From Acidobacteriota bacterium (GTDB taxonomy: Bacteria > Acidobacteriota > Blastocatellia > UBA7656), in NCBI GenBank assembly GCA_016201275.1, contig JACQDB010000025.1, positions 1 to 61,722 of the forward strand: a DNA stretch of 61,722 bases, given 5' to 3'. A program made the translations under genes and the position numbers. The first letter of the stretch is position 1. Every line of letters begins with the position of its first letter. Below the pieces are notes generated by a model, which did not search any database, was not told where the DNA came from, and saw nothing but the letters and a program-made list of their open reading frames with translations. Positions 26,480-31,583 of the stretch are shown here, piece by piece.

Positions 26480-26828
26480 GAGACGTTCTCCAAATGGCTC
26501 AAATAAAAAATAGCGTTGTTGACAACGCCGTTATTCTACCATTTCGTAGATTTTTATTCCAAGCGTGTTGCTTTTGTTGTCCTTAGTCTCTGGTCATGAG
26601 TCCTTAGCAAGTCGCCTCAACAGCACTTAGTTTAGTGGCGGTCTCTGACCGCCCACAGCCTGCCGCTCAACTAATCGCACAGACCTGCAACCCGCTATAC
26701 AAACCAGCTAAGGGACGGGGAAGAACATATCATTCCATCATTCCAGTTGAGAAGCGGTTACAGACCGCCTCTCAACCCTACGCTTATTGCTTTCCGCTTC
26801 TCTACTGACCACGGGCTACGGACGATTT
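26480..26828. other. 349-bp spacer with two copies of the GCGGTC palindrome family
   Basis: GGCGGTC-TCT-GACCGCC at 26637-26653 and GTTGAGAAGCGGT/ACCGCCTCTCAAC at 26746-26776 (one mismatch) are members of a dispersed hairpin family also seen at 41745, 44990 and 61354. No gene is visible. Confidence 0.7.
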
Positions 26829-28196
26829 TTACGCATCATAAAGCGCCGCAATCAGACAGCCGCGAGCGGTTGCGGTGAGCGGGTCACGCGCCATACGGAT
26901 TTCCGAAATCGCCAGCGGGAATTTATCGCGCTCGACGGCCTGTTGGAATTTTTCCAGAAAGCCTTTGGGCATGGCAGTGCCGCCGCTCAACACAATCGGC
27001 ACGGGCTTTTCCGAACCGGGCATATTCTTGGCATCCGACAAGGCGTTTCGCAGCGATTCGACCAGCGACAAAATCACATCGTCATAATAAATGTGCAGAG
27101 CGCTTTCAAATTTGTCTTCCGGCGAGTGCGATAAATCCAGACTCTCTTCTTTGATTAAACGGATTCGGGTCGCGCCTTCGCCGGTAACCGAAGCGACGCT
27201 GCGATCAATATAATCACCGGCTTTGTTGATGCTGAAGGTCATCACCGGTATGGACATAAAGGCCAAAGCGACGTTGCACATACCGCCGCCGCAACTGATG
27301 CCGATGCCGCTGAAGTTCTCTTTCTCCAATTCTGCGAAGACCACCGCCAAGCCTTCGTTGACACCTTTGGAGTTGAAACCTTTGGTGTCGAGAAGTTTTT
27401 TCAGCATGGCTTCGTGATAAACGAGGTCGGCAGCGGCGCTGCCATCTCGACCGGGGCCGGGAACGCTGAAGCGCAGGCTTTCGCCTTTGCCCGGTTGTTT
27501 CAGTAGTTGTTGAATGATTGCTTCCATCACCGACATGGATTGCTCTTCATCGGGGTTGAGCGTACCGGCCATCATCGGTCGGCGAGTTTCGATATTAAAG
27601 ACATTGGCGAAACGCCCGGCTTCATTGCCGTACACCTGCAAAGCCGTGCCGCCATTCTGGTAGTAATGAATTTTGTTTTGCTTGAGTATATTTTCGGTGA
27701 ACTTTGAATACGGCACGGTGATAAACGCATTCAATTCGGTTTCGGTTTTGACATTATCAATCGCGCCGCCAGCCAACACCAGACGACTGGTTCCCACATC
27801 CAGCCCTAACGCATTATGGTCGCTGCTGGCTGCCGCTTCGTTGTTGTCATGATCTTTCTCTTTTGCCATGGTTATCTTGCCTCCAATTCTTCTTGGTTGA
27901 GGATAGAGCTTTACAGGCTCTTCCGCTATCGTTCTAAACGCTGTCCTGCTCAGTTTCAGCGTGACGGTGTTGCCGGTCGCGTGGGTTCGCTTGGCCTCGG
28001 CCTTTCCGGCAACCGGCAACAGGCTACGTCTTTTCGGCCTCAATTTCAAACTGCCGAGACCTTTGATGGTGATGACCTGTCCGGCGACCACCTGTGTTGA
28101 GATAACCCGTAACGCCGCGTTGATGCCGCGTGCAGCGGCGCGTTTGCTCAACCCGGTGCGCGCCGCAACTTCGTTGATCAGGTCAGCCTTGTTCAT
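26829..28196 (-). CDS. HU-type DNA-binding domain fused in frame to an actin-like ATPase
   Basis: A continuous 455-codon frame. Residues 1-90 are an HU/IHF fold: MNKADLINEVAARTGLSKRA, ISTQVVAGQVITIKGLGSLK, and a C-terminal strand TGNTVTLKLSRTAF. After a linker, residues ~128-455 form an actin/ASKHA ATPase. Phosphate-1 is GLDVGTSRLVLAGG (131-144), phosphate-2 GIGISCGGGMCNVAL (297-311), and the adenosine motif VLSGGTAMPKGF (402-413); NEGLAVVFAEL (280-290) fits connect-1. Met110 has its own GGAGG (27880-27884) and would give a separate 346-residue actin. So the locus could yield both a fused and a free actin, or two genes may have merged by loss of the HU stop. I do not recognise a named family for the actin half. 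Role is inferred only: a filament or switch that can touch DNA. Confidence 0.8.
   Translation of the reverse strand: MNKADLINEVAARTGLSKRAAARGINAALRVISTQVVAGQVITIKGLGSLKLRPKRRSLLPVAGKAEAKRTHATGNTVTLKLSRTAFRTIAEEPVKLYPQPRRIGGKITMAKEKDHDNNEAAASSDHNALGLDVGTSRLVLAGGAIDNVKTETELNAFITVPYSKFTENILKQNKIHYYQNGGTALQVYGNEAGRFANVFNIETRRPMMAGTLNPDEEQSMSVMEAIIQQLLKQPGKGESLRFSVPGPGRDGSAAADLVYHEAMLKKLLDTKGFNSKGVNEGLAVVFAELEKENFSGIGISCGGGMCNVALAFMSIPVMTFSINKAGDYIDRSVASVTGEGATRIRLIKEESLDLSHSPEDKFESALHIYYDDVILSLVESLRNALSDAKNMPGSEKPVPIVLSGGTAMPKGFLEKFQQAVERDKFPLAISEIRMARDPLTATARGCLIAALYDA
27867..27884 (-). promoter_or_regulatory. Internal ribosome-binding site and ATG for the actin part
   Basis: On the minus strand GGAGG (27884-27880) is followed after 10 nt by ATG (27869-27867), opening MAKEKDHDNN in the same frame as HU. 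The upstream HU start at 28196 lacks a comparable signal. Confidence 0.7.
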
Positions 28197-28377
28197 AGTT
28201 TCAGTGCATCGTGAACCTGGAATCGTGAGTAGTGAAAAATGGTATTAAGAAGATGACTGAATAAAAATATGACCGCCACAACCGAACACTCACGCGGTGC
28301 GAAGGTGCTGCCTATCATGTGTTGTTGCACAACTGCTGCCCAGCGTTCTTCACGATTCACGCTTCGGGATTCACGAA

Positions 28378-29748
28378 TCACGGCTCACGGCTCACTTCTT
28401 TCACGTCTTCTTCACTGGCCAGGCGTTCCTGATCTATGGCGTGCTGCTTGGCGTAGGCGCGTTGAAACACCTCCCAGAAGGCGCGGCGCTGTTGTTCGAT
28501 GACCACACCGTTTTTCTTGGCGGTCTCCCACAAAGCGCTATCGGCGCGACTCAAACCCGCCCAGCGTTTGCCGCCCGCCGCTGTCACATAAGCCTGATCG
28601 TAGGCAAATCCGAATCTGGAAATGGCGTACATTTCGGTCTCGTATTTGTTCGTCAAGCCGACCGCTTCAAAAGGAAAATTCGCCACCCAATCGGTGTGAT
28701 GACCTAACAAACGACTGGTCGGATTGGTGGACACCAGACCGTGCGTGGTGCAGTTGGCATCGTTGATCTGATACTTCGAGCGCAGCACGGCGGTCAACAC
28801 CCGCGCCGCGTAAAGCTGCGCTTCGGTGATGCCGTCCGGCCCTTTACCGGCTTCCGCTTTGCCTTCAAAACTGATGCCGAGAAAACTCGAATTCAAATTG
28901 ACATAGACGCTGCGCCCATCGCACCAGATGGAATTGCCAGCGTGATTGGCTACGCCTTCATCGCGCACGATGCGATAGATGCGCCCGAAACGGTCTATGA
29001 TGTAATTATACAAACGATGAGCGCGAGCATACTCCATCAGCGCTTGCGAGCTATGCTTGAGCGAAGCGTTGTACTGATTGGAAAACGGCAACAGGTCGCT
29101 TTCGGTGAGGTGATAAATGATGCCTACGGGTTTGGACTGTAGAGGGAAATTGGCGTTGTCGCTGTTTACTTTGTCGAGATCGAAGCGATAAAATTTGCGT
29201 TCGGCTCCGGCGGTTTCAAAATCTTTGAGGATGCGCGCCCCGTTGCTGTATTCCTCGAAGCTCTCGCTTTTTTCCACCAGCCAAACTTTATCCAGCGGCA
29301 ATCCGGCTTCATTGCCAATAGTGGAAACCGCTTTGCTGGGGTCTAGCGCGTCGCCGGTTTCGGCTGGGTCAATGCTTTTGGCCACCGTAGGACTGGAAAG
29401 ATTGCTGATCGCTTTGGAGGCGATGAAGACCAGACCGCTGGCCGCCGCCAGTGTGGCGACCACGCAGACCGCGTACACCGCAAAGCGTAGGCGATAGAGC
29501 AGCGACGTGAAACGCAAGGCCAGCGGCATGGGATTACTGGGCGGCAAGAGTTTCGATAGCTCGACAATCAGACGGGCGCGTTCCGGCAACGAGCCAACCA
29601 ACGGCAACTTCATCAGCAGGCTGTCAGGTTGCGGCGTTTTCAAAACCGCATTGAGATATTTCAAGCGCAAGACCGGCGATTCGATATAGCGCGAATAGCG
29701 GTCAACGATTTTTATATAAGCGCTGTCTTGCTGTTTGATGTCCTTCAT
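28378..29748 (-). CDS. Membrane-anchored N-acetylmuramoyl-L-alanine amidase (Amidase_2/PGRP fold)
   Basis: A 456-residue protein. A cytosolic helical segment (about 1-85) precedes one membrane helix (AVYAVCVVATLAAASGLVFI, near 92-111). A linker leads to the amidase domain. Key stretches are PVGIIYHLTESD (first zinc His), YNYIIDRFGRIYRIV, GVANHAGNSIW (second His region), FLGISFEGK, QLYAARVLTAVL and GLVSTNPTSRLLGHHTDW (third His/Asp region). It should cleave the amide between N-acetylmuramic acid and L-alanine in peptidoglycan, outside the membrane. ATG 29748 begins 5 bp after the stop of the SPOR gene, so both form an operon. SPOR domains bind amidase-denuded glycan, which fits the pairing. 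Confidence 0.85.
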   Translation of the reverse strand: MKDIKQQDSAYIKIVDRYSRYIESPVLRLKYLNAVLKTPQPDSLLMKLPLVGSLPERARLIVELSKLLPPSNPMPLALRFTSLLYRLRFAVYAVCVVATLAAASGLVFIASKAISNLSSPTVAKSIDPAETGDALDPSKAVSTIGNEAGLPLDKVWLVEKSESFEEYSNGARILKDFETAGAERKFYRFDLDKVNSDNANFPLQSKPVGIIYHLTESDLLPFSNQYNASLKHSSQALMEYARAHRLYNYIIDRFGRIYRIVRDEGVANHAGNSIWCDGRSVYVNLNSSFLGISFEGKAEAGKGPDGITEAQLYAARVLTAVLRSKYQINDANCTTHGLVSTNPTSRLLGHHTDWVANFPFEAVGLTNKYETEMYAISRFGFAYDQAYVTAAGGKRWAGLSRADSALWETAKKNGVVIEQQRRAFWEVFQRAYAKQHAIDQERLASEEDVKEVSREP

Positions 29749-29753
29749 CGCGT

Positions 29754-31583
29754 TTACGGATTGTCGTAGGCACACACCACCAGTTGCAAATTGACGCCGG
29801 TTGCCTGGGCGCGTTGTTTGGCCTGCCCGGCATATTTTTCTGCGTCTGCCGCTGTCATGAAGCGACCGACACGAACCCGATACCAGCGCCCTTTGCCGCT
29901 CAGGTCAGCGGCAATGATATAAGCGGGAATCCCCGAACGAATTAATTTTTCAGAGAACTCTTTGGCCGCCTGTGCGTTGGGAAACGAGGCCGCCTGCAAC
30001 GAAACTTTGCCTTGACCGGAGGGCGTTTCAGCCGTGGGCTTGCTTTCGTTTGCGGTCGCCGCTTGGGTGTCCGGCGTGGTCGCTGCTGGCGTGGTCGCAT
30101 TCTTTGTCGCAGGGGTTTCCGTTGGCGTTGCGGCGGGCGCAGAGGCTTGCGGTTTTAGCGGCGGTGCAGTCGGTTTATTCTCTTCATTGGGAGTGCCAGC
30201 GCGTTGCGTTGGACTGACGGGCTTGTTGCCAAAGTAAGGTTTGTAAACCAGAAAATATCCTGCCGTAGCCGCCAGCGCCAGAAGCACCACAGCGGCAATG
30301 GTGAGCAGCGGCTTGGACCGCGGACGCTTCTCTTGCTGCACCATCAACACCGGGTAATGGTCCATCGCGGTGTCCCACGGATTCGCCAAGTTGTCCGAGA
30401 CCGGCGCTAGGTGTTGAGCGTCGGCTGGAAAAGGCGGCAACGGGTCGGCAGCCGCAAGAGGCGCGACCTGCGGTTCATAAGATGACGGCGTTTGCGGGTC
30501 AGGCAACGGCGTATAAAACTGCGCGACGGGTGGCTCTTGCACTGACGGATAATATCGGGGCGCAGGCGATTCCAGCACCGGCGGATAATATTGCGGCTCG
30601 GCGTTGGCGATTTGACTGTGGTCTCTGGCCATAGGTTGCGGCGGCGGCGCAAAGGAAAAATTTTCAGACGGCTTGCGAGTCTCCGGTTCCGGGGTGTTCA
30701 AACTGCCGGACCCCGATGGCGATGAAGCGTAAATTTTTTCTGCGTAAGGGGATTGAGGAAATGAATTGTCGTCAGGCGACGGAGCAAATGAATTGTCGTC
30801 AGTTGGCTGTGAAAGATGATTCGCGAAAGCTTGCGGTTGGCTTTCGACTGCCGCTTGCCACATGGCGGCCTCCGGCGTTTGCGGCGTATCAAACGACACT
30901 TCTTCATAAGCGGGTTGAGTATAAAACGCCTCGGCTTGATAAGCGGTTTGTTGATTGAACGACACCGCTTCAGGTGCAGGCGCGGCGCGCTCTTCGGTGA
31001 CGACAATCGGCAATGCTATATCAGCCGTTTTGTTGCCGTTGGCAACGGTCGCGTCAGCCGCTTTCTCGTCGCTTTGAAAATAGAAATCGGCGTAATGATT
31101 TTCGCTCGATGACAGGGATGGCTCAACGCTTGCCTGCACCATTGGTGCGACGATTGGCGCGGCGTCATCGAATGACTCAAAGCTCGACGCCGTTGGTCTA
31201 GGCGCTTCATACGCAGCATGATTTACGGCTGGTGCTGGGGGCGTCTCGATGGGCGGCGCGACCGCATAATGATTTGCCACATTGGTTGCCGGAACCTGTA
31301 GGGCTGGCGGCGGCACGGTGACGGGCGCAGGGCTGCTCTCGAAGGCAAAGCCGAAAGGGTTGCTGGCTCCCGCATCGCGGTTGGCGGCAAACTCTGCCGC
31401 TAGCTGCGCGGTCGGCGGTTTGGCATCCACGATAATCGTCGAACCCGAAGCCGCCTGCGGCAATATGGTTGCCAGCATGGCGCGACACTCTTCACATAAA
31501 TGAGAAGGCAAGGCGCTGTTGGTGGCGCTGCCGGAAACTTCCTTACATAAAGGACAAATTGAACTCACCGTAGTTGTCTGCAT
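29754..31583 (-). CDS. Zinc-ribbon / single-pass / SPOR-domain protein
   Basis: A 609-residue protein. An N-terminal zinc ribbon (CPLC near residues 10-13 and CEEC near 31-34) is followed by a ~370-residue disordered, Pro/Ala/Glu/Tyr-rich region. One membrane helix (LLTIAAVVLLALAATAGYFL) lies near residue 430. An Ala/Thr/Pro linker leads to a SPOR domain at the C-terminus (SLQAASFPNAQAAKEFSEKL, WYRVRVGRFMTAADAEKYAG). SPOR domains bind denuded septal peptidoglycan. The bulk of the chain would be cytosolic, with the SPOR domain outside. The upstream AGAGAG precedes ATG 31583. It heads the operon with the amidase and is a plausible division or septal factor. Confidence 0.85.
   Translation of the reverse strand: MQTTTVSSICPLCKEVSGSATNSALPSHLCEECRAMLATILPQAASGSTIIVDAKPPTAQLAAEFAANRDAGASNPFGFAFESSPAPVTVPPPALQVPATNVANHYAVAPPIETPPAPAVNHAAYEAPRPTASSFESFDDAAPIVAPMVQASVEPSLSSSENHYADFYFQSDEKAADATVANGNKTADIALPIVVTEERAAPAPEAVSFNQQTAYQAEAFYTQPAYEEVSFDTPQTPEAAMWQAAVESQPQAFANHLSQPTDDNSFAPSPDDNSFPQSPYAEKIYASSPSGSGSLNTPEPETRKPSENFSFAPPPQPMARDHSQIANAEPQYYPPVLESPAPRYYPSVQEPPVAQFYTPLPDPQTPSSYEPQVAPLAAADPLPPFPADAQHLAPVSDNLANPWDTAMDHYPVLMVQQEKRPRSKPLLTIAAVVLLALAATAGYFLVYKPYFGNKPVSPTQRAGTPNEENKPTAPPLKPQASAPAATPTETPATKNATTPAATTPDTQAATANESKPTAETPSGQGKVSLQAASFPNAQAAKEFSEKLIRSGIPAYIIAADLSGKGRWYRVRVGRFMTAADAEKYAGQAKQRAQATGVNLQLVVCAYDNP

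Follow-up and report, generated by a model that had tools for sequence, protein, structure and literature searches.

A shortened HU fused to a volactin-family actin in Blastocatellia retains an internal start and is encoded near a predicted partner amidase

In the window (the whole 61,722-nt stretch of DNA analysed here), an open reading frame on the minus strand (26829-28196, ATG start) encodes 455 aa comprising an HU part, a linker and an actin of the volactin family. Our explanation of the locus, to which we give a probability of about 0.55 as a whole, is that this is an old and functional fusion of a shortened HU with a volactin-type actin, that it makes two products, and that these form an amidase-bound filament linking the nucleoid to the cell wall. 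Sequence comparison between genomes establishes the fusion itself, the retained internal start, the selection on the HU part and the pairing of the actin with an amidase; we infer the two products and their ratio, the orientation of the amidase in the membrane, the binding of its tail to the actin and of the HU head to the nucleoid, and the role in coupling. The HU-actin combination is, as far as we know, new, and it is assembled from known families. The features of the locus are:

26829..28196, minus strand: HU-volactin fusion gene, 455 aa, predicted full-length product of about 49.0 kDa
27921..28196, minus strand: HU-like body, residues 1-92, with two helices, three strands and a last helix; the arm is degenerate
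27813..27920, minus strand: linker, residues 93-128, mostly predicted disordered, holding the internal ribosome-binding site and start
27880..27884, minus strand: internal Shine-Dalgarno-like GGAGG, an in-frame Gly-Gly, in 12/12 fused genes
27867..27869, minus strand: internal ATG, predicted start of a plain actin of 346 aa and 37.4 kDa
26832..27812, minus strand: volactin-family actin domain, about residues 129-455 (PF25216, 249.8 bits), nearest solved folds MamK and MreB
28378..29748, minus strand: Amidase_2 protein, predicted partner, 456 aa from the ATG at 29748 (a GTG at 29775 is possible), with one predicted membrane stretch
29754..31583, minus strand: SPOR-domain protein encoded just upstream of the amidase, for which no role in the system is claimed

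Pfam recognised both halves of the frame, as a sequence-only reading of this DNA had proposed when it described an HU fold and an actin fold in one open frame. The HU family (PF00216) matched residues 1-56 with 39.4 bits (E 7.5e-10; profile positions 1-56 of 90; curated cut-off 22.4 bits), and the Volactin family (PF25216) matched residues 130-451 with 249.8 bits (E 6.3e-74; profile positions 3-321 of 321; curated cut-off 35 bits). The structure check of both parts, run with AlphaFold2, bore out the same layout: the model of the whole fusion, based on 46 aligned sequences, had a mean pLDDT of 85.8, with an HU-type domain over residues 1-91 and an actin fold from residue 129. Its N-terminal elements follow the HU order (helix 3-14, helix 18-37, strands 42-44, 48-54 and 76-82, helix 84-91), and pLDDT falls below 50 at residues 61-72 (the HU arm) and 92-126 (the linker, which is variable in length and sequence among homologues). 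Modelled separately, the HU part reached a mean pLDDT of 78.1 and resembled solved HU structures (best E 4.5e-5), Lactococcus lactis HU (5lvt) being the closest. The HU fold claimed by the earlier reading holds for the body, whose topology is complete, but not for the arm, which is without the RNPxTG motif. For the whole-fusion model, MamK and MreB ranked first among solved structures. At the sequence level, the match of the actin to MreB_Mbl (PF06723) was 16.3 bits, under the curated cut-off of 27, and MreB itself is represented in the same genome by two strong matches elsewhere (491.9 and 346.1 bits). In a profile alignment, the phosphate-2 motif of the actin reads SCGGGMCN, with a Ser opposite the Asp of MamK's DIGAGTTD.

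The fusion extends well beyond this genome. A whole-protein search of 58 genomes, the window's own included, gave a match in 31, and 12 of these carry HU and actin fused in one frame with no stop between the halves; they are Blastocatellia genomes from nine genera and three families (seven from the window's own family, one from another family of its order and four from a further family of the class, f8). For one f8 genome (G029) the match was listed from residue 119 only, yet the open frame includes the HU. The sequence-only reading had proposed searching the two halves across genomes and had named a stop codon between them in close relatives as evidence against it; the fusion was found in the window's genome and 11 others, all six of the other family genomes are fused, and no stop occurs in the 1219 HU-plus-linker codons of the 12 fused genomes. 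Across these assemblies the fusion is kept down to about 50% identity.

Among 162 genomes of the class, PF25216 matched 35, with 34 over the cut-off and one match per genome; the 34 comprise the 12 fused genomes, 11 of family f6 and 11 of family f3, and an f3 genome (G132) fell under the cut-off at 19.2 bits. A scan of genome contigs gave 72 volactin loci in Acidobacteriota, Desulfobacterales and other deltaproteobacteria, and Gammaproteobacteria. Nine of these loci (L066-L073 and L131) matched an HU profile, and they are the same contigs as nine of the 12 fused genomes rather than extra cases. This profile had been trained on six genomic HUs together with nine fused HUs out of the 12, one of them truncated at an internal GG, so that its matches on fused genes are mostly built in; an independent test came from Pfam PF00216, which was over its cut-off in all six of the other fused proteins scanned, out of 11 others. 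Run in six frames over loci L006-L028 and L036-L137, the profile matched fused loci only, with no HU beside a standalone actin. The 11 f3 genomes, represented by 12 loci, gave no match; these stretches are a few kb long and would not reveal a more distant HU. For the 11 f6 genomes, visual inspection of the 560 nt preceding the actin likewise showed no HU. A search of the phylum with an HU alignment was unselective (HU in 396 of 396 genomes). In one actin-only relative (L075:1182-1362, genome G042), the frame is open for about 37 codons upstream of the GGAGG, with no HU recognisable in it.

The actin trees are consistent with one origin of the fusion. With 46 chosen rows, the fused rows lay on one side of a branch against f6 (support 100/100), and with 45 chosen rows they lay on one side of a branch against f6 and f3 together (100/99). 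The same trees may instead reflect an older fusion followed by loss in f6 and f3, since the fork with the fused rows alone is weakly supported (80/56) in the 45-row tree and is unresolved in the 46-row tree.

Codon comparisons indicate that the HU part is coding and evolves under purifying selection, which is less strict than on the actin. In the three least diverged pairs, dN/dS was 0.25, 0.14 and 0.35 for HU (residues 1-85) and 0.04-0.06 for the actin, and of five further pairs three gave HU values of 0.25-0.31 (dS 1.5-2.3) and two were saturated. The short stretches between the domains scattered widely in three close pairs (0.05, 0.88 and 0.28 over 15-18 codons of linker; 0.27, 0.46 and 1.22 over 22-25 codons from the GG to the actin), and thus neither is clearly constrained as protein.

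RNPxTG is the motif of HU's DNA-bending beta arm. It is visible in the genomic HUs and absent from all 12 fused HU parts, so that canonical HU-type DNA bending is unlikely and DNA binding by the fused HU is uncertain. HU plus linker is basic in every one of the 12 (pI 8.1-11.9), and binding or tethering of the nucleoid by the HU head is plausible. The main rival to nucleoid binding is dimerisation or docking: the fusion and both products would be real, and a head without DNA binding would cross-link filaments, cap them or bring in a further HU. The absence of RNPxTG in 12/12 with the HU body retained favours such a head, as do weaker HU-HIG matches in four of the six other fused proteins scanned (over the cut-off in three) and sub-threshold HU-CCDC81 matches, but the basic character of HU plus linker in 12/12 counts against it, and we judge it rather unlikely. 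Four other HU-family matches occur in the same genome, and the proteins concerned are possible dimer partners of the fused HU.

Returning to the two-product fusion that we favour, the gene probably yields an HU-actin of about 49 kDa and a plain actin of 37 kDa. The sequence-only reading had seen that the actin part keeps its own GGAGG and ATG and that the HU frame translates this ribosome-binding site as ...RRIGGKITMAK...; both points are confirmed here, and a conserved internal ribosome-binding site and start were found in all 12 fused genes. Its size estimates of about 49 and 37 kDa agree with the masses computed for the predicted products (49.0 and 37.4 kDa). The GGAGG stands 10 nt from the ATG in two fused genes, including this one, and 4 nt from it in the other 10. 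The codons of the site are GGA-GGC in six genes and GGA-GGA in six; the last position of the second Gly codon, which is not part of the GGAGG, differs between genes (C in six, A in six). The first Gly is GGA in 12/12 genes, compared with 67 of the 420 other Gly codons of the same genes, and GGAGG spells only 5 of their 61 other Gly-Gly pairs (Fisher 7e-10 for the codon and 3e-10 for the pair, kinship among the genes ignored); with one gene per genus, the corresponding value for GGA retention is 0.16^9 = 7e-8. The occurrence of GGAGG and ATG in 12/12 genes at a seldom-used codon therefore indicates that the internal starts have been selected. As each of the 34 class genomes has one volactin match, no other source of plain actin is known in these genomes.

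It is improbable that the full-length fusion alone matters and that the internal GGAGG-ATG is a relic from before the fusion. Inheritance of the site is possible because the standalone start in f6 is preceded by GGAGG in 11/11 loci (f3 actin genes have GGAG-type sites there), but GGA has been kept in all 12 genes despite synonymous differences of 0.61-0.82 per site in the actin (five inter-genus pairs), within a linker that varies in length and sequence and next to a third base that differs between the genes. Still less probable is that the internal start alone is used, with the HU frame being an extension that arose by chance or is decaying. None of the 12 genes has GGAG, GAGG or AGGA within the 20 nt preceding the start codon assigned to the HU, which would fit such a reading; this absence is not diagnostic, since other long ORFs of the window are also without a ribosome-binding site at their first starts and six of the 12 fused genes have other in-frame starts upstream of the ATG taken (in L011, a GTG 42 nt upstream with GGAG before it). 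An HU over the Pfam cut-off, with dN/dS of 0.14-0.35 and an open frame throughout the 12 genomes, argues against a decaying extension. A consensus scan of 26600-28600 gave no promoter-like site. The best reading of the sequence around the two starts is that initiation would be weak at the HU and strong at the actin. The alternative raised by the sequence-only reading, a recent stop-codon loss without function, can practically be dismissed together with an assembly error joining two genes or a chance frame, as these are ruled out by the selection on HU (dN/dS 0.14-0.35) and by the recurrence of the fusion across 12 assemblies, to about 50% identity; no evidence in favour of a stop loss or an assembly error was found.

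The actin is accompanied by the amidase across most of its range. Of the 162 class genomes, the 34 that have the actin are also the 34 that have the amidase (amidase search threshold, E up to 1e-25), although these are not 34 independent events because the pairing is inherited. An amidase relative occurs in 67 of the 72 volactin loci, always on the same strand as the actin (46 upstream, 21 downstream) and with a gap of at most 1,382 bases (57 of 67 within 500, 64 of 67 within 1,000), and the pairing is also found outside Acidobacteriota, in Desulfobacterales and Gammaproteobacteria. The five loci without it are L127, L128 and those of three fused genomes in which the amidase gene sits on a different contig; the pair thus need not share a transcript. 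A ParM-type segregation system would have an adaptor gene and centromere repeats beside the actin; the neighbours scanned here include amidase, SPOR and PilZ proteins, and a relative of the SPOR-domain protein is present in 13 of the 72 loci. The fused genes L069, L071 and L073 lie away from the amidase; in L069 and L073 the next genes encode cytochrome c assembly proteins and glutamyl-tRNA reductase, and one of these two loci also has a sensor kinase upstream, which gave no functional lead. Genes of matching size follow in L071.

Gene order is amidase-actin, with no HU, in f6, and amidase-HU-actin in the window's own family, in the other family of its order (f2) and in one f8 genome (G054). 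HU stands there between the two genes, directly in front of the ribosome-binding site belonging to the actin, and an insertion at this point is the simplest reading. The amidase and the bacterial volactin look like a two-gene module in their own right, and this pairing, together with the HU-less amidase-actin relatives, goes beyond what the sequence-only reading had envisaged.

The topology of the amidase was predicted from hydropathy alone. A hydrophobic stretch lies at residues 83-101 of this protein (start at ATG 29748), and one over the threshold was present in 60 of 68 amidase frames, with none in eight. With the threshold lowered slightly, 61 of the 68 frames and the amidase of this locus, giving 62 N-termini, were aligned around their best stretch and revealed a tail motif near I.DPv.KLRFLr, which occurs as P-x-x-[RK]-L in 61 of 62, in a looser form in 44 and as DPVxKL[RK]F[LI] in 13; in this amidase it reads SPVLRLKYL. 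It is plausible that this tail, presumably cytosolic, binds the actin through its PxxK/RL-centred motif, which is degenerate and constitutes a correlation.

In the mechanism that we propose, translation from the first ATG, without a recognisable ribosome-binding site, would give HU-actin, and translation from the internal ATG with its GGAGG would give plain actin. Plain actin would supply most of the filament, and HU-actin, incorporated in smaller amounts, would tag it with a basic head that probably dimerises and would bind the nucleoid. The sequence-only reading had likewise envisaged a DNA-anchored and a free actin, whose mix might nucleate filaments on the nucleoid. A further contact of the filament would be with the cytosolic tail of the membrane amidase encoded next to it; the enzyme domain of this amidase would be placed beyond the inner membrane, and the actin would in this way link the nucleoid to local peptidoglycan hydrolysis, with a possible use in coupling wall opening or septation to chromosome position. 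The specific claim that HU-tagged and plain subunits build a mixed filament, which physically connects the nucleoid with a transmembrane peptidoglycan amidase and thereby positions wall cutting relative to the chromosome, is put forward only tentatively, with the odds against it.

The usual connection of bacterial actins to DNA or membrane is a separate adaptor protein. Here, a DNA-protein head is built into the actin, and two starts in one gene apparently keep control of the number of tagged subunits. The actin-amidase pair further suggests a function for bacterial volactins, namely the control of a wall hydrolase. If true, the mixed HU-actin filament would provide a link between nucleoid and wall amidase for which we know no counterpart among other bacterial actins.

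Among known systems, HU/IHF proteins (PF00216) share the body fold and sequence of the fused HU, which differs from them in being joined to an actin and in its arm without RNPxTG. MamK and MreB are the nearest solved folds to the actin, with a weak sequence match to MreB. Haloferax volcanii is an archaeon without peptidoglycan, and its volactin would thus have no amidase role. According to the available part of its description, that protein (VolA, HVO_2015), a member of the same Pfam family (PF25216) as the actin domain here, forms dynamic actin filaments whose tips bind the membrane and has a role in disk formation; unlike for the fusion here, this part mentions no HU head or internal start (PMC10869688). 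The cyanobacterial actin FcmB is described as derived from plasmid-partitioning actins, and the terms volactin, Acidobacteria and amidase do not occur in the main text of that paper (PMC12645912). Neither an HU-actin fusion nor an actin-amidase pair appeared among the open-licence literature matches listed, and a 2017 HU/IHF survey may mention them. Internal starts are used by both SpaO and AerR. In the available portions of the respective papers, SpaO is reported to give full-length and C-terminal products (PMC13059759) and AerR two isoforms (PMC6199135), whereas the shorter product of the fusion gene here would be a complete actin.
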